Of a stretch of DNA of 64,000 bases, positions 22,281 to 41,950 are shown piece by piece (position 1 is the stretch's first letter; every line of letters starts with the position of its first letter). The notes beneath the pieces are model-generated. The model was not told the origin of the DNA. It made no database searches and worked only from the letters and a program-made list of their open reading frames with translations. This stretch comes from Cytobacillus pseudoceanisediminis (GTDB lineage Bacteria; Bacillota; Bacilli; Bacillales; Cytobacillaceae): the NCBI RefSeq assembly GCF_023516215.1, contig NZ_CP097349.1:806001-870000 (forward strand). Direction: 5' to 3'. Position numbers and translations under genes: made by a program.

Positions 22281-23435
22281 ATGGAGAAACACGATCAGCT
22301 TTTAATGAAAAGACAAAATAAAAATCTTGTTCTTGATATTTTAAAGACCAAGTCTCCTATATCAAGGATAGATATTGCAAAAATGACGGGGATGAGCCCG
22401 ACTTCCATAACACGAATTGTCACTGAGCTTCAGCTGCAGGGCTATCTAAGGGAAACGGAGGCAGTTGCATCGGGAGTAGGGAGAAAAGCAACCTTGCTGG
22501 AAGTTCGCGGAGATGTGCTTTATACAGTTGGCATTGAAATTGATAAATCCCTGCTGAAGGTTGGAATTGTCAATTATATTGGAGAAATGGTTTCATTACA
22601 TAAGAGTAAAAGAAATGAATCAGAGAGTTATATGGAAACACTTCATAAAATAGATGCGGTCATTCGAAAGATCATGGATGAAAACGAGATTCCTGCTGCT
22701 AAAATAATGGGCCTGGCAGTCGGTTTACCTGGATATATTGATTATAAAAACGGAATTGTAAAGATATCGGATCAGTTAAAGTGGAAAGATGCAAGCCTGG
22801 CTGAAGATCTGCAAAAGCTTACCTCTTTTAATGTCATAGTAGATAATGAATTAAAAATGAAGATTGTGGCAGAGAGCTTTACAGGCAAAGCGAAGAATTC
22901 GCAGAATTCCATATTAATAGGCATTGGGTCAGGAATAGGCTCTTCTATCATGCTTAATGGAGACATTTACAGAGGGGAAACCAATAATGCAGGGGAAATC
23001 GGGCATACCGTGATTGATCCTACTGGCAATGTCTGCAATTGCGGCAAAATAGGCTGTCTTGCAACCTATATTTCTGAAGGGGCGATCCTTGCTGACAGCA
23101 GGAAGGTGAAGGATATTTCTTCTATAGAAGATGTGTTCCAATCCTACCGTGACCGGGAGCCCTGGGCACTTAATATTATGGATAGAGCCTCCACTTATAT
23201 TGCATTGGCCATCAGCAACCTCCTCTGTCTGTATAATCCTGAAGTCATTATCTTGAGCGGCAATACGATTGAGAAGCTGCCTGAAATGAAGCAAGCCATT
23301 GAGCAAAAATGCGAGTTATATATATGGGAGCCATTGAAGCAATCGGTGAGAATCGTATATTCGGAATTAAGTGAGAACGGAGTTGTTCTTGGGGCGGCCA
23401 TACAGGCCCAAAATCTCATGCTGGAGCTTGAGTAG
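22281..23435 (+). CDS. ROK-family transcriptional regulator (NagC/XylR type)
   Basis: A 384-residue protein: N-terminal winged helix (PISRIDIAKMTGMSPTSITR) and a ROK sugar-kinase-like domain with the zinc motif CNCGKIGCLATY and the GIGSGIGSSI phosphate loop. Probably senses a sugar and controls the surrounding catabolic genes. It reads in the same direction as the operon, before the asparaginase. RBS AAGGTAGGA. Confidence 0.88.
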   Translation: MEKHDQLLMKRQNKNLVLDILKTKSPISRIDIAKMTGMSPTSITRIVTELQLQGYLRETEAVASGVGRKATLLEVRGDVLYTVGIEIDKSLLKVGIVNYIGEMVSLHKSKRNESESYMETLHKIDAVIRKIMDENEIPAAKIMGLAVGLPGYIDYKNGIVKISDQLKWKDASLAEDLQKLTSFNVIVDNELKMKIVAESFTGKAKNSQNSILIGIGSGIGSSIMLNGDIYRGETNNAGEIGHTVIDPTGNVCNCGKIGCLATYISEGAILADSRKVKDISSIEDVFQSYRDREPWALNIMDRASTYIALAISNLLCLYNPEVIILSGNTIEKLPEMKQAIEQKCELYIWEPLKQSVRIVYSELSENGVVLGAAIQAQNLMLELE

Positions 23436-35548: not shown

Positions 35549-35833
35549 ATTTCTGCCCTCCATTAAGAATGCCATTACTTATTTAGTATTGCCCAAAATT
35601 GTACTATGTAGAGCTATAAATGCCATGAACCTTATTCCTTTCTGCATGGTTATATGGAACCCGATAAATCTGGGTGTTTGATTCAGTAACAATACCCCAG
35701 CCCGGCACATATTTTGATGAGGAGAGTATTCGGAGAATGGATGAATTCAAAGAAATGCCGATTGATTTCTGCTGTTCTTCATGATTGCCCTTTGTTGCAG
35801 GCACAGCTTATTAATATTTATGGAGGTATGAAC

Positions 35834-36097
35834 ATGAATGATTTTCAGAGAGATCTTCAAATGCTGAATGTTGGTGATTTCCATGCGAACGAGGCGGTTC
35901 CATGGGATCAAAGCCAGTATTATAATGATCAATCCCGGCAAATTGGTTTTGGTTTTGGCCGCTGCTTTAGCTGCTTTTTCTTCTTCTGTTTCAACTGCTT
36001 TAACTGTTTTAATTGTTTCAACTGTTTCAGATGCTCTAATTGTTTCAGATGCGGCGGTCGCTGCGGAGGCCGTTGTGGCGGCCGCTGCGGTGGTTGA
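35834..36097 (+). CDS. TOMM bacteriocin precursor peptide, heterocycloanthracin/sonorensin family
   Basis: An 87-residue precursor. Residues 1-42 form the leader (MNDFQRDLQMLNVGDF..., with FHANEAVPWDQ); the core from about residue 43 has 13 Cys: CFSC, then Cys every third residue from 52 to 73 (CFN, CFR, CSN), then three CGGR units and CGG. The ribosome site GGAGG lies 7 bp before ATG 35834; the longer frame from 35714 has none. Cys (and few Ser) are expected to become thiazol(in)es by the enzymes encoded next. A partial terminator follows. Confidence 0.9.
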   Translation: MNDFQRDLQMLNVGDFHANEAVPWDQSQYYNDQSRQIGFGFGRCFSCFFFFCFNCFNCFNCFNCFRCSNCFRCGGRCGGRCGGRCGG

Positions 36098-36143
36098 TAA
36101 CCATGAATCTATAAAACAATCCTTGCTGTATTGCAAAAGGAAG

Positions 36144-36175
36144 GCCCCTGCATTTTGCAGGGGCACTTCTCTTGA
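36144..36175 (+). terminator. Hairpin between TOMM precursor and maturation genes
   Basis: GCCCCTGCA and TGCAGGGGC (36144-36152, 36156-36164) make a perfect 9-bp stem with a 3-nt loop and a weak T-rich tail. Probably allows high precursor expression with partial read-through into the enzymes. Confidence 0.75.
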
Positions 36176-36268
36176 AGGTAAGACATATGAGACAAAGCCC
36201 GGTACATAGGATTATAGAGAAAGTAATGTTTAATAAATAGGAACAGTTTACGGGTAAGGAGGCGCGAA

Positions 36269-38224
36269 ATGAAAAATTTGACCCCTTCTATGCGGCTGAA
36301 GGTAAAAAGGGACACGTTTTTTCTCCCAGATCCAACTAAGGGTGTGTATTTCCGCAATAATGTAAGTTCCTTCCAAATGGAAGGAACTATGATCGATCAG
36401 TGGGTTCAAAAGCTGATGCCAATGTTTAATGGCGAGCATTCGCTGGGGGAATTGACAGCCGGCTTGCCGGGCCCGCATAGGGATCGGGTGTTTGAAATTG
36501 CAGAAGTGCTATACCGTAACGGCTTTGTAAGGGATGTAAGCGGGGACCATCCTCATCAATTGGAAGATCATGTCCTTAAAAAGTATTCTTCTCAAATCGA
36601 ATTATTGGAAAGCTTCGGTGACTCGGGTGCATACCGATTCCAGGCCTACCGGCAGGAAAAAGTGCTGGCAGCAGGATCTGGCCCTTTTTTGGTTTCGCTG
36701 GTTTCTTCGTTGATTGAGTCCGGATTGCCTAAAGTTCATATGGTCATTACAGACCCTGAATCGACGAATACAAGGCGGCTGAATGAGATTGTCGCACATG
36801 CCCGGCAAACAGACCCCGAAGTTTCAGTTGAGGACGTAACATACCAGAAGGAAGAAGACTGTCCCTGGGAGGAATTGATACAGCCTTATGATTCCATTTT
36901 ATATGTTTCGGAAGCAGGGAATGTAGAGGAACTGCAGGTTATACATGCCGCGTGCCGGAAAGAGAAGAAGATATTTCTTCCTGCAATTATCTACAAACAG
37001 GCTGGTATGGCAGGGCCTCTCGTGCATCCGGAATCAGAAGGCTGCTGGGAGTCTGCCTGGCATAGAGTCCATCAATCCGCGTTTTGCGAAGACAAGCAAT
37101 TGCACACCACCTCCCCAACGGCAGGAGCGATGCTGGCTAATTTAATCGTGTTTGAACTGTTTAAAGAGGTTACCGGATTAATCAGTGCTGAACAGAGAAA
37201 TCAGTTTTTCCTGCTGAATCTGGAGACGCTTGAAGGAAATTGGCATTCCTACCTGCCACATCCGAACCTGACCGGAAATGCTGCTGTGGAATGGATTCAA
37301 GATGTTGATCAGAGGATCGGGCAGAGTTCCGAAAGAAATAAGACTGACAGTTTGTTTCTGTTTTTCAGCCAATTGACTTCCAAAGAATCCGGGATTTTTC
37401 ATACATGGGAGGAGGGGGATTTAAAGCAGCTTCCGCTGGCACAGTGCAGCGTACAGGTAGCAGACCCGTTGTCAAAGGGCCCGGCAGAGCTCCTGCCAAA
37501 TATAATCTGTACAGACTTGAGGCATGACGAGGCGCGCAGGGAAGCGGGGTTGACCGGGATTGAAGCGTATGTATCGCGGATGGCTGGCCGGCTTGAACTG
37601 CCTCCAAATAGCGAAATAAAGGGGAATATTTTAAATTTAAATGAATTTGCTGGAATTGGAGCAGGGGAAACATTTGCGGAGGGTGTTTTACGCGGGCTGG
37701 ATAGGGGTTTGGAAGAGAAACTGGCTAAGCGTCAAGAGGTTCAGAAAACAGTTTCTCCGCTCCATTTGAATGCAGTAGAAGATGAACGATGCAGGTTCTA
37801 TTTGGATGCATTGACAACGATGCAGGGAGCACCGAAAATCTGCCGGGGTGAGGGAGTATACGGCTTCCCTGTGGTCTGGGTCGGCACGGACGATCGCTGG
37901 TATGGCAGTGTTGGCTTTAATAACACATTAGCTCTGAGGAAAGCGCTGCAGCATGCGATTATACAGATGCAAAACCAATTGGGGACTCATAAGGGGACCG
38001 CTGTGGAGGCACCATCTGTGCTTCTCGAAGAAAAGGAGCCTCAAAGTCTAGTCATTCCTCCTTGTGATGAGAAGGAACAAACCCAGCTATTGCTGTCTGC
38101 AAGAAGGGTGCTGGAAGAAAACAGCAAGCGGCTCTTAGTCTGTGAATTTTCGTTCGAGCCATTTTTGAAAGAGAGTCTGGCAGGGGTGTTTGGGGTGTTC
38201 ATAAGAGAGGAGGAATCTCAGTGA
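36269..38224 (+). CDS. Thiazole-containing bacteriocin maturation protein (ThiF-like, TOMM cluster)
   Basis: A 651-residue protein. Residues about 1-90 look like a peptide-recognition (RRE) winged helix (MRLKVKRDTFFLPDPTKGVYFRNN region), followed by a degenerate ThiF/E1-like Rossmann part (VLAAGSGPFLVSLVSSLIESG) without the usual ATP-site Arg/Lys set that I can see. This matches the ocin ThiF-like family found only with heterocycloanthracin precursors. It likely presents the leader peptide to the cyclodehydratase. RBS AAGGAGG; overlaps the next gene by 4 bp. Confidence 0.85.
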   Translation: MKNLTPSMRLKVKRDTFFLPDPTKGVYFRNNVSSFQMEGTMIDQWVQKLMPMFNGEHSLGELTAGLPGPHRDRVFEIAEVLYRNGFVRDVSGDHPHQLEDHVLKKYSSQIELLESFGDSGAYRFQAYRQEKVLAAGSGPFLVSLVSSLIESGLPKVHMVITDPESTNTRRLNEIVAHARQTDPEVSVEDVTYQKEEDCPWEELIQPYDSILYVSEAGNVEELQVIHAACRKEKKIFLPAIIYKQAGMAGPLVHPESEGCWESAWHRVHQSAFCEDKQLHTTSPTAGAMLANLIVFELFKEVTGLISAEQRNQFFLLNLETLEGNWHSYLPHPNLTGNAAVEWIQDVDQRIGQSSERNKTDSLFLFFSQLTSKESGIFHTWEEGDLKQLPLAQCSVQVADPLSKGPAELLPNIICTDLRHDEARREAGLTGIEAYVSRMAGRLELPPNSEIKGNILNLNEFAGIGAGETFAEGVLRGLDRGLEEKLAKRQEVQKTVSPLHLNAVEDERCRFYLDALTTMQGAPKICRGEGVYGFPVVWVGTDDRWYGSVGFNNTLALRKALQHAIIQMQNQLGTHKGTAVEAPSVLLEEKEPQSLVIPPCDEKEQTQLLLSARRVLEENSKRLLVCEFSFEPFLKESLAGVFGVFIREEESQ

Positions 38225-40164
38225 GTGCTGTCGTGGTAGTTGTCGGAGAGGGACTGCTGGCGGACAGCGTAAGCAAAGAACTGCTCGCCGAATATAAGGT
38301 AGTCCGTCATGTGAACTTTGAGCCTGAACTGCCGGTTGGGACTGATTTGATACTGGTGGTGCACGATAGCTGGATGCCTTCAGTTCATAAGAAAGCGGAG
38401 GAGGTGTCACGATCATCAGGTATTCCCTGGCTGCGGGGCTTTGTATCATTTGGAGAGGGTGTGATTGGCCCATTTGTTCACCCGTCCGCGCCGGGATGCT
38501 CACAGTGTGCGGACACTCGAAAACTCCTGGCAGGGCGTGACCGGGAAGAGATGTGGGAACTGCAGCAGAGACTCGAAGGGAGCAGCGGATTAGAGCGTGA
38601 TGCCTGGGCATCGCGCACAGGACTTTTACAGATGTCCTGCCTGCTTGTGTCAGAGGTAAAAAGGGTACTGGAGGGCAGTTTTGCGGATCTGGAAGGGCGA
38701 ATGTATTTGGTCAGCCTGAAAACATTTAAAACCTCTTGCCACCTCATTTTGCCGGATTCAATGTGCCCAGTGTGCAGCTCCCTGCCTGAAGATTCACAGG
38801 AAGCTGCAAGAATTACCATTAAGCCAAGTCCGAAAATAAGCGCAGCCAGTTACCGCTGCCGCTCATTGGAAGATTTAGATCAAACGCTAGTCAAAAATTA
38901 TCTGGATCCTCGGACTGGTTTAATGAATGGGAAAATGTATGATTTCACGCCGCCTTTTGCGGATGTAGTCGTAAACCTTCCGCTGTTTAGAGGGGACGAA
39001 GGCGTGGCTGGCCGCACTCATTCCTATAAGGTGAGCGAGCTGACAGCCATCCTGGAGGGGCTTGAGCGTTCATGCGGCATATCGCCCCGTGGAAAGAGGA
39101 CAGCAGTCTATGACAGTTTCCGCAACCTGGAAGATCGGGCTCTTAATCCTGTAAAAGTAGGTGTGCATGCGGATGATCAATATGCACGGCCCAACTTTCC
39201 ATTTAAAAAATTTAATCCAGATAACCCGATGAATTGGGTATGGGGTTATTCGTTTTTGCAGGAGCGCCCGATTTTGGTTCCTGAGCTGCTTGCTTATTAC
39301 AGCCTGGGCTGCGGGAATGGATTTGTCTATGAAACATCCAACGGATGCGCGCTGGGCGGCAGCCTGGAAGAAGCGATCTTCTACGGTATTTTAGAAGTGG
39401 TGGAGCGTGATTCATTCCTGATGACCTGGTATGGGCAGCTGTCCCTGCCGCGTCTTGATCCTTATTCCTCCAATGAACAGGAATTGCAGCTGATGATTGA
39501 TCGGGTGAGGACAGTGGCGGGATATGATCTGCATCTGTATAACGCCACAATGGAGCATGGAATTCCAAGTGTTTGGGCGATGGCGAAAAACAGGAAGAAA
39601 AAAGGATTGAATATCATTTGTGCGGCTGGAGCTCATCCCGACCCGGTCCGGGCGGTAAAAAGCGCTGTTCATGAGTTAGCCGGAATGATGGGGACACTGG
39701 ACGATAAACTCGAAGAAAACAAGGGGGAATTTTTGCGAATGCTGCAGGATTCTTCCCTCGTCGGCAAAATGGATGACCATGGGATGCTTTACGGCTTGCC
39801 GCAAGCGGAGGAGCGCCTGAAGTTTTTGCTGGATGAAAACCGTCCGCTCCGAACGTTTTCCGAGGAGTTCAAGCGGGAGAGAAGACATGCAGACCTGACA
39901 GATGATCTGCAGGACCTTCTTCAGGCATTGCACCGGCAAAATCTTGATGTAATAGTGGTGGATCAGACGACACCGGAAATACAGCAGAGCGGATTGCATT
40001 GTGTCAAAGTGCTGATTCCGGGTATGCTGTCAATGACATTTGGACACCACCTGACACGTGTAACAGGGCTTGAGAGGGTGCTTGAGGTCCCGATGAAACT
40101 GGGATATGCAAAAGAACCCCTTACAGTTGAACAGCTTAATCCACATCCTCACCCATTTCCATGA
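38221..40164 (+). CDS. Fused TOMM cyclodehydratase: E1-like leader-binding domain plus YcaO (SagC/SagD type)
   Basis: A 647-residue protein. The N-terminal part (about 1-210) is E1-like with two CxxC pairs (CSQC, CPVC) likely binding structural zinc. The C-terminal YcaO domain (about 230-647) carries the ATP-site Glu-rich helices GGSLEEAIFYGILEVVERD and AVKSAVHELAGMMG and ends in PHPHPFP, the Pro-rich tail needed for azoline formation. It uses ATP to cyclise Cys/Ser/Thr of the precursor. GTG start overlaps the previous stop (GTGAGTG). Confidence 0.92.
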   Translation: MSAVVVVVGEGLLADSVSKELLAEYKVVRHVNFEPELPVGTDLILVVHDSWMPSVHKKAEEVSRSSGIPWLRGFVSFGEGVIGPFVHPSAPGCSQCADTRKLLAGRDREEMWELQQRLEGSSGLERDAWASRTGLLQMSCLLVSEVKRVLEGSFADLEGRMYLVSLKTFKTSCHLILPDSMCPVCSSLPEDSQEAARITIKPSPKISAASYRCRSLEDLDQTLVKNYLDPRTGLMNGKMYDFTPPFADVVVNLPLFRGDEGVAGRTHSYKVSELTAILEGLERSCGISPRGKRTAVYDSFRNLEDRALNPVKVGVHADDQYARPNFPFKKFNPDNPMNWVWGYSFLQERPILVPELLAYYSLGCGNGFVYETSNGCALGGSLEEAIFYGILEVVERDSFLMTWYGQLSLPRLDPYSSNEQELQLMIDRVRTVAGYDLHLYNATMEHGIPSVWAMAKNRKKKGLNIICAAGAHPDPVRAVKSAVHELAGMMGTLDDKLEENKGEFLRMLQDSSLVGKMDDHGMLYGLPQAEERLKFLLDENRPLRTFSEEFKRERRHADLTDDLQDLLQALHRQNLDVIVVDQTTPEIQQSGLHCVKVLIPGMLSMTFGHHLTRVTGLERVLEVPMKLGYAKEPLTVEQLNPHPHPFP

Positions 40165-40186
40165 GCATGACCGGGAGGTAAAAAGG

Positions 40187-41761
40187 ATGAATCTAGATAC
40201 CTTTCTGCACAATTTGCATTTTGATATTGACCAAATAAGCCCGCCGGATTGGGAAGTGGATTGGGAAGATGCGCCGCTTGCCTATAAGCTTTACCGGGGC
40301 TTGCCAGTTGTTCCCCTGTCACTGGAGGTTCCCCTTTCCTGTAAAGAAATGGAGGAACCTGCAAAGCCTGAACTTAGGAGAATGGGTCATTTTCTTTGGT
40401 ACACATTCGGCCTTAATCAGGTTAGCCAATCCCTCTTTCCAATTGGGTCCAATGAAGAGGCGGATGGGTTTATGCAGTCGCTTCGGCGGTCTGTGCCTTC
40501 TGGCGGAGCGCTGTATCCTAACGAACTATACATGTTCCTGAAATTGGATGACTTGCCGGAGGGAATCTACCACTACGATGTGCTGCACCACCGCCTGGTG
40601 CTGCTGCACAAGGGTAATTTCGATTCCTATATAGCCCGTGCTCTTGGCAATCGCTGTGATGTGACATCTTGTTTTGGGACTGTATTTATGACGACCATGT
40701 TCTGGAAAAATTACTTTAAATACAATAACTTTGCTTATCGACTGCAGGGCTTGGATGGAGGTGCAGTGATGGGACAGTTATTAGAGGTTACAAAGAGGTT
40801 TGGTTTTGCAGCGGGAGTGTACTTCAACTTTCTTGATCGTGCCCTAAACCATCTCCTTGGACTGTCTGATCAGGAGGAGAGCGTATATGCCGTTATCCCG
40901 CTGTCAGTTGAACCGACCAGCTGGGCTGTGAACAGAAGCGGCAGGGATGGAATGGCCTCTGCCTCCGAATTGTGCGAGGAAGTAACATCGGTTCAGAATA
41001 ATGACTGGGTCAGGTCAATCAGAGTGAAAGACTTTCCGATGTTAACCGGCATCAATAAAGCGTCCATGCAGGAATCAGCTAAATCGTTTCGTCAAATCAG
41101 CCCTAGTGAAACCAATTGTGAGGGCCGGCCTTTGACTCTTCCTCATGTAAAAAGGATATCGTATGATTTGGCGTCAGTCTGCCGCGAGCGATTTTCACCG
41201 GACATGGATTTTGTTTCAGGAAAGGTTAGCCAAGAGCAGCTTGCTGCACTCCTTCAGGAGGCGACCGCATCCTGCTTGTATCGAAACGACTTAGATATGG
41301 CACTTGACAGGCGCGCGTCACGTGTAACTCTATATGTGTGTTTGAATAACGTCGAAGGGATTCCGGATGGAGCTTATTATTATGACAGCGATGCTCATTC
41401 ACTAAGGGAGCTTAATCCCGGAGACCATCGAATTGCGCTTCAAAACGGAATGCCTGCAGGCAATGTGAATCTGTTTCAAGTCCCGCTCTGCTTTCATATA
41501 GCAGGGGATAAAGATTTTCATAAAGCGGAAATGGGCTACAGAGGCTATCGCATCCAGCAAATAGAAGCGGGAATGCTTATGCAGCGGCTGCTTATAGCTG
41601 CGACAGCCCTTGGGATGGGCGGGCATCCGCTTCTCGGATTTGATGCGAAAATGTGTGATGAAATTTACAGAATGGAATCACAGGGAAAAACAACCCTTAT
41701 CCAAATCCCGATTGGCTTCTACCGGGCACGTCCATGGCTGAGAGGGAATTTAATCAGCTAG
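40187..41761 (+). CDS. SagB-type azoline dehydrogenase (tandem nitroreductase domains)
   Basis: A 524-residue FMN enzyme with two nitroreductase-like halves: the first with RRSVPSGGALYPNELYMFL, the second with DRRASRVTLYVCL and GMLMQRLLIAATALGMGG. It oxidises azolines to aromatic thiazoles/oxazoles. The longest frame starts at 40106 inside the YcaO gene, but GGGAGG 8 bp before ATG 40187 fixes the start. Third enzyme of the TOMM operon; a strong terminator follows. Confidence 0.9.
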   Translation: MNLDTFLHNLHFDIDQISPPDWEVDWEDAPLAYKLYRGLPVVPLSLEVPLSCKEMEEPAKPELRRMGHFLWYTFGLNQVSQSLFPIGSNEEADGFMQSLRRSVPSGGALYPNELYMFLKLDDLPEGIYHYDVLHHRLVLLHKGNFDSYIARALGNRCDVTSCFGTVFMTTMFWKNYFKYNNFAYRLQGLDGGAVMGQLLEVTKRFGFAAGVYFNFLDRALNHLLGLSDQEESVYAVIPLSVEPTSWAVNRSGRDGMASASELCEEVTSVQNNDWVRSIRVKDFPMLTGINKASMQESAKSFRQISPSETNCEGRPLTLPHVKRISYDLASVCRERFSPDMDFVSGKVSQEQLAALLQEATASCLYRNDLDMALDRRASRVTLYVCLNNVEGIPDGAYYYDSDAHSLRELNPGDHRIALQNGMPAGNVNLFQVPLCFHIAGDKDFHKAEMGYRGYRIQQIEAGMLMQRLLIAATALGMGGHPLLGFDAKMCDEIYRMESQGKTTLIQIPIGFYRARPWLRGNLIS

Positions 41762-41900: not shown

Positions 41901-41950
41901 AAGGCCCCTGTTCTTGAATGAAGGATTCATTAACAGGGGCCTTATCTATT
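41901..41950 (+). terminator. Terminator of the TOMM operon
   Basis: AAGGCCCCTGTT (41901-41912) pairs perfectly with AACAGGGGCCTT (41932-41943), 12 bp, with an inner small hairpin and a TATCTATTTT tail. The remaining 41762-42153 sequence is AT-rich with nothing else recognised. No exporter or immunity gene lies here. Confidence 0.85.

Follow-up and report, generated by a model that had tools for sequence, protein, structure and literature searches.

A complete heterocycloanthracin cassette in Cytobacillus pseudoceanisediminis, probably under mother-cell control during sporulation

The DNA analyzed here (the window) is a stretch of 64,000 nucleotides (nt) of Cytobacillus pseudoceanisediminis (contig NZ_CP097349.1, positions 806,001 to 870,000, forward strand), in which a precursor, an F protein, a fused cyclodehydratase (C-D) and a SagB-type dehydrogenase form a four-gene run; the genome measures 5.69 Mb. 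Judged from its proteins, the locus is a complete heterocycloanthracin (HCA) cassette and an ordinary member of a known family of ring-modified peptides. This cassette is probably run by the mother-cell programme of sporulation, and its azole peptide would then be made in the mother cell, where no exporter is needed. The new part of the analysis is the non-coding DNA, namely, the promoter-type boxes and a hairpin, none of which the preliminary description of this DNA had noticed. The elements concerned are the following.

35687..35716, + strand: predicted sigma-K-type promoter, TAACA-N16-CATATTTTG, upstream of the precursor (81/127 related loci)
35834..36097, + strand: HCA precursor peptide, 87 amino acids (aa), 13 Cys (TIGR03601, 52.4 bits, cut-off 35; GGAGG 7 nt 5′ of the ATG)
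36144..36164, + strand: hairpin GCCCCTGCA-TTT-TGCAGGGGC, the best stem of the gap between the precursor and the enzyme genes, conserved in relatives
36184..36212, + strand: predicted sigma-E-type promoter, CATA-N17-CATAGGAT, upstream of the enzyme operon (116/127 related gaps)
36269..38224, + strand: F protein (ocin-ThiF-like), leader-binding partner by family (TIGR03693, 784.5 bits, cut-off 561.9)
38221..40164, + strand: fused cyclodehydratase (C-D), YcaO (TIGR03604, 433 bits, and TIGR03882, 150 bits, both above cut-off)
40187..41761, + strand: SagB-type dehydrogenase, 524 aa, with two nitroreductase-like halves (TIGR03605, 209.7 bits, cut-off 78.4)

All four proteins pass the curated cut-offs of the HCA family or its enzymes, and the assignment to the heterocycloanthracin/sonorensin-type thiazole/oxazole-modified microcins in the preliminary description of this DNA was right. 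For comparison, 80 + 60 stretches were taken by hand, mostly high-scoring ones, from the TIGR03601 matches; one of them (L095, 10 bases) was unusable, leaving 139. L033–L040 were excluded from the gene-order and F-protein-tree analyses onward, and only L039 of these adds a precursor of its own to the sets of 91 distinct precursors (host-family genomes plus L039). The colinear order precursor–F–C-D–B, with the precursor directly upstream, was found in 127/139 stretches; in one stretch the enzymes are present and the precursor lies elsewhere, and in 11 the precursor occurs without a full enzyme set in the stretch.

Alignments of the regions around the precursor revealed conserved blocks in both of the leader classes described below. 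One group lies 5′ of the precursor and consists of TAACA, 16 nt, CATATTTTG and then GTTGA-GAGAGTA; another lies between the precursor and F and consists of the hairpin, followed by CATA, 17 nt and CATA-NNN-T. Searched as a pattern in the 250-nt regions before the precursor, AACA-N16-CATANNNT occurs in 81/127 loci against 1/575 controls, and with the spacing varied over the rest of the range 8 to 23, the same two elements never occur in more than 9/127. Before F, [AC]ATA-N17-CATANNNT occurs in 116/127 gaps against 3/575 controls, and changing the spacing leaves no more than 7 gaps. As controls served 575 regions upstream of open reading frames (ORFs) of at least 150 aa in host-family stretches; because a part of them is coding, an intergenic set of 396 was added, where the sigma-K-type pattern was found once and the sigma-E-type pattern twice. 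Dinucleotide shuffles (20 rounds) gave 0–2/127 and 0–1/127, respectively. When mismatches are allowed, at least 9 of the 11 positions of TAACA-N16-CATANNNTG are matched in 117/127 loci against 25/575 controls. The sigma-K-type box occurs in 55/88 class I and 26/39 class II loci, and the sigma-E-type box in 78/88 and 38/39. Between the −10 box and the start codon there is a median of 114 nt in the case of the precursor (90 loci) and of 46 nt in that of F (26 loci fitting a stricter pattern). Just 3′ of the −10 of the precursor, at 35716–35731, the window carries GATGAGGAGAGTATTC, which appears in the alignments of both classes as the GTTGA-GAGAGTA block and is perhaps a regulator site.

On both strands of the window, TAACA-N16-CATANNNTG occurs once, at 35687, while the sigma-E-type pattern occurs at 36184 and also at 22983 (+) and 23201 (−). 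The −35 and −10 of the window's sigma-E-type site are imperfect in comparison with what we take to be the consensus. In the excerpt of PMC517825 dealing with these sigma factors, sigma-E and sigma-K share the −10 and differ in the fourth base of the −35 (T versus C), and the −35/−10 spacing is 12 ± 1 after an 8-mer and 15 ± 1 after a 5-mer. These rules are fitted by TAACA-15-NCATATTTTG and by the class II form TCATAATG-13-ACATAAAATG; the class I form, which the window has, fits less well. A spore coat gene of the BMQ_0737 family elsewhere in the host genome likewise has the strict sigma-K pattern in front of it, and similar boxes were seen by eye before spoIID and dpaA.

The hairpin is the other conserved element of the gap. 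The best stem-loop of the gap beats that of a same-length region before the precursor in 114/127 loci, and that of one shuffle of the gap in 119/127. Its arms contain CCCC/GGGG or CCCT/AGGG in 88/127 loci, and the strict CCCTGC/GCAGGG form was found in 56/127 gaps, with 10 further sites elsewhere in 2371 kb. In the 101 of 127 stems that were anchored on a CCCT-like motif, a procedure favouring that motif, position −1 pairs in 99/99 cases against at most 75 after re-dealing, and position +4 in 97/97 against at most 70; since the stems were chosen as the best-pairing ones and pair by construction, these values describe letters varying in step and are no independent proof of covariation. No known RNA family was found for the hairpin: the three cmscan matches listed were far below the gathering scores, and they lay elsewhere. 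The hairpin is likely a terminator, either leaky or full, at which transcription of the precursor ends and by which the precursor would likely be made in excess, or alone.

The boxes and the hairpin were also looked for where enzymes are lacking. For 10 precursors in nine enzyme-less host-family loci, 7 have the sigma-K-type box, 4 match a loose hairpin pattern, and the other 6 have, by eye, a similar stem of the GTG(T/C)CC...GGCAC type. Precursors without enzymes in the stretch and then a similar hairpin were observed in L101, L103, L104, L108–L110, L112, L117 and L076, and L109 carries a clear copy of the enzyme-promoter box behind its enzyme-less precursor. The similar hairpin and the L109 box suggest that the enzyme-less precursors descend from full cassettes. 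One genome (G126, with L107–L110) has seven TIGR03601 matches, several of them without nearby enzymes, which looks as though many substrates shared a single maturation set.

The distribution of the family also points to sporulation. In a 250-genome sample of the class, SpoIIID is present in 177 genomes; among these are all 36 whose F protein exceeds the cut-off, and 49 of the 50 that have an F match of any score (P = 1.2e-6 for the co-occurrence, ignoring kinship). Among 397 genomes sampled from the host's order, 94 have a precursor match, and none of the 18 genomes without SpoIIID is one of them (P = 0.007, ignoring kinship). As for expression, a family gene of B. cereus is reported to be upregulated in biofilm cells, and the same cells also show raised sporulation genes at 24 and 48 h (PMC6962202, excerpt). 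No stated link of the HCA family to sporulation was found in the literature searched, with most subscription journals outside its coverage.

Several observations weigh against mother-cell control. One is that the boxes are not universal: the strict sigma-K-type box is absent in 46/127 loci, 10 of the 127 fall below 9 of 11 matches, and the sigma-E-type box is absent in 11/127. Another is that [AC]ATA-N13-CATA overlaps the precursor box in 42/127 loci, the window included, so that sigma-E might read the precursor box too. The loci are moreover homologous, and box counts are thus not independent events; kinship is likewise still contained in the SpoIIID counts. SpoIIID-type sites are weakly enriched in the gap (31/127 versus 84/575 controls). 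Genome-wide, the strict sigma-K pattern occurs at 41 places against 22 for a backward control (27 versus 22 with a 12-nt spacing); among the 30 of these 41 hits that were examined, there are, besides the HCA site, 5 intergenic ones with an ORF behind, and the three downstream proteins searched from these five are one coat, one Hsp20-family and one phage-holin-type protein. The last point is that sonorensin, assigned to the HCA family, has been reported as an antibacterial peptide (PMC4544038, excerpt), which counts partly against a role in sporulation.

The following scheme is our inference as regards the sigma factors using the boxes, the order of events, the pattern of rings, where the peptide goes and which protease acts. 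Sigma-E would first transcribe F–C-D–B; sigma-K would then transcribe the precursor, whose message would end at the conserved hairpin. F would bind the leader and deliver the precursor to the fused cyclodehydratase, which would convert Cys into thiazolines, and SagB would oxidize these to thiazoles. The product would be a peptide of two parts, the first hydrophobic with Phe and thiazoles, the second with Arg, Gly and thiazoles. A sporulation protease cutting after Arg, with YabG as a candidate, could remove the leader. No exporter would be needed because the peptide would be kept in the mother cell and reach the spore surface, or be freed at mother-cell lysis.

The lead to YabG comes from the leader-core border. 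In a loose pattern, an Arg after an acidic residue is found near this border in 117/127 precursors, and it is followed by Gln in 54/127 (40 of class I and 14 of class II), the window having QSR-Q. The YabG of C. difficile cuts preproSleC at SR|QS and uses a nearby Arg when this site is deleted (PMC6464247, excerpt). YabG is encoded in the host genome, and by analogy it may be regarded as a lead for leader removal after Arg.

A wider proposal, which we put forward tentatively and hold to be somewhat less probable than its negation, is that HCA peptides in general are mainly sporulation peptides and not secreted bacteriocins: sigma-E would provide the enzymes, sigma-K the later substrate, and a sporulation protease such as YabG would cut the leader, leaving an amphipathic polythiazole peptide in or on the spore surface. 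Should transcription of these genes be confined to the mother cell during sporulation, growing cultures would be the wrong place to search for the peptide. In one study, colony mass spectrometry gave no evidence of the HCA peptide encoded by a Paenibacillus strain (PMC11594732, excerpt). TIGR03601 precursors are common, occurring in 133/193 genomes of the host's family.

The absence of transport and protection genes bears on the alternatives. The preliminary description had noticed no protease, exporter or immunity gene between 35576 and 42153, and this is borne out for the listed ORFs of at least 50 aa. Clustering of the ORFs of 79 stretches placed F, C-D and B in 70 stretches each, and no other cluster in more than 17. 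Among the clusters present in at least 5 of the 79 stretches, judged by size and first residues, none was recognized as an exporter, protease or immunity gene shared by the HCA stretches, a search that did not extend genome-wide to unlinked exporters. In agreement with this, only the fused cyclodehydratase, F and B are common to all HCA clusters according to PMC4603692 (excerpt), so that the missing exporter, protease and immunity gene are a family trait that is already published; the literature examined, partly in excerpt, gives no export route for HCA peptides.

The strongest alternative keeps the mother-cell timing and regards the peptide as an antibiotic released at mother-cell lysis and not as a spore component; we consider it unlikely, at about one chance in several. 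Lysis would replace an exporter and dormant spores would need no immunity, by which the lack of both kinds of genes is explained as well as by a place in the spore coat, and the idea agrees with the sonorensin report and with the variation of cores from strain to strain (PMC2674419). Antibacterial activity of the peptide is a presumption of this reading, and the computed evidence fits a role at the spore surface equally. Less probable still is an ordinary secreted bacteriocin, with an unlinked exporter and protease and with the boxes read by another sigma factor or regulator. The name and annotation of the family and the reported antibacterial activity of sonorensin favour it, and because HCA precursors and enzymes may lie far apart (PMC2674419), other parts could too. 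However, the spacing and sequence of the boxes fit sigma-K and sigma-E; no sigma-70-type site of at least 9 of 12 matches was found before the precursor or F on the + strand; and no linked gene beyond F, C-D and B is in more than 17 stretches in the clustering, where an ABC-ATPase-type cluster (21 ORFs in 15/79 stretches, probably generic ABC ATPases) and an antiporter (13/79) were not followed up.

The precursor itself was described in the preliminary account by its Cys, and the two parts analyzed here are as follows.

35834..35962, + strand: leader part, residues 1–43, class I, with the border Arg at QSR-Q (residues 33–36)
35963..36094, + strand: Cys core, with an aromatic block (residues 44–72) and then a CGGR block (residues 73–87)

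The ATG is at 35834 and the stop codon at 36097. The Cys are at residues 44, 47, 52, 55, 58, 61, 64, 67, 70, 73, 77, 81 and 85, giving spacings of 3, 5, 3, 3, 3, 3, 3, 3, 3, 4, 4 and 4; a run of seven 3-spacings was reached by 1 of 200,000 core shuffles, and the core has the Cys-Xaa-Xaa repeats that mark an HCA precursor. The 13 Cys, the eight at exact three-residue spacing (52–73) and the CGGR units are thus as first described, except that the description omitted Cys 44, Cys 47 and the step of five residues leading to the block. The two-part spacing is real and is not peculiar to this locus: the founding HCA member already had 13 Cys, with ten two-residue and two three-residue gaps (PMC2674419), and 76/91 distinct precursors use at least two spacings at least twice each, 62/91 having two or more runs of different spacing. 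A core unique to the window is therefore ruled out. The expansion and contraction that had been proposed as a check were seen in 14 Cytobacillus-clade precursors, which have 5–8 CXX units and 3–5 complete CGGR-type units; evolution thus gains or loses whole units. Cys intervals without aromatic or basic residues are three long in 249/265 class I and 99/107 class II cases, while class I basic intervals without aromatics are three to seven long, so that the Cys register partly follows the unit type. That the two registers yield two separately cut products, one of two possibilities in the preliminary description, is highly improbable: many precursors do show two compositional blocks, but the block order differs between clades, close relatives vary by whole units, and no conserved cut-like site was seen by eye between the blocks. 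L091 (9327–9608) holds an atypical precursor about 5 kb from its F gene; the spacers of this precursor are Val/Ser, and some of the steps between its Cys are of two residues.

The leaders form two classes. On the F-protein tree (127 rows), a quick one built without a mixture model and with long-branch warnings, the class changes twice and the segment order five times. The first set shows the aromatics preceding Arg/His in 45/45 class I cores and following them in 45/46 class II cores. In a held-out set of 61 precursors classified by a leader profile, this rule was kept in 43/47 of class I (3 opposite, 1 undefined) and 10/14 of class II; with a regular expression fixed beforehand, the values were 24/24 and 10/19, with 18 unclassified. 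The rule is broken by a class II group containing L066, L160, L203, L206 and L208, and also by L150, L151 and L155, which belong to class I by weaker scores. The held-out results thus weaken the idea that leader class strictly dictates segment order, and the relation is a strong tendency and no law. It may be read as one shared amphipathic design in two orientations.

The enzyme set of ThiF-like protein, fused SagC-D and SagB is as the preliminary description gave it, apart from the SagB start: ATG 40187, preceded by GGGAGG (524 aa), is most likely correct, and not 40106 within the cyclodehydratase gene. The C-D is N-terminally shortened relative to LynD (TIGR03882 + TIGR03604) and aligns with it through the C-terminal Pro-rich end, query residue 154 corresponding to LynD residue 283. 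In this alignment, ILEGLER, SNGCALGGSLEEAIFYGILEVVERD and the C-terminal NPHPHPF, which we take to be ATP-site segments and the C-terminal motif, have clear counterparts. SagB matches 3eo7_A in two stretches. The published family (PMC4603692, excerpt) is the basis for the functions given here to F, C-D and B. The enzyme genes are under purifying selection, as judged from ratios of nonsynonymous to synonymous substitution (dN/dS) of 0.14–0.31 in 12 comparisons; the YcaO and SagB degeneration in all relatives that had been named beforehand as contrary evidence was not seen, and a degenerate cluster is ruled out.

At the end of the operon, a further hairpin was read from the sequence.

41901..41943, + strand: terminator-like hairpin at the operon end, AAGGCCCCTGTT ... 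AACAGGGGCCTT

The flanking genes match the Na+/H+ antiporter family (−), amine oxidase (−) and an AraC-type regulator. Among the 8 loci found, the closest named relative is that of Cytobacillus oceanisediminis 2691, whose cyclodehydratase is 99% identical, and the host is by this measure a relative of C. oceanisediminis. In L069, L086, L093, L105, L106 and L116, with four genus codes, the cassette adjoins the same ribosomal-protein/truA/ECF-type region (names assigned by eye), which is perhaps a favoured insertion site.

Three groups of known systems resemble the window. The mother-cell genes of B. subtilis under sigma-E and sigma-K agree with it in promoter spacing and in the one base by which the −35 elements differ (PMC517825, excerpt); the regulon membership of the window genes is a prediction, and genes of HCA type are not mentioned in that excerpt. 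The thiopeptide systems with F proteins (PbtF, 8t19) share with the window the PbtF-like N-terminal part, F residues 13–90 matching the solved PbtF chain 8t19_A (E = 3.6e-7), whereas the window has no thiopeptide-type precursor, and its enzyme genes are F, C-D and B only. The closest likeness is to the heterocycloanthracin/sonorensin family (TIGR03601; Haft 2009, PMC2674419), with the same leader, the Cys-repeat core of mixed spacing, the F protein, the N-terminally shortened fused cyclodehydratase and SagB. In comparison with the founding HCA systems, the window precursor lies directly upstream of the enzymes, which is nearer to the arrangement of B. licheniformis than to that of B. anthracis/B. 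cereus, and its core largely has Phe-Asn spacers in place of Gly-Gly.

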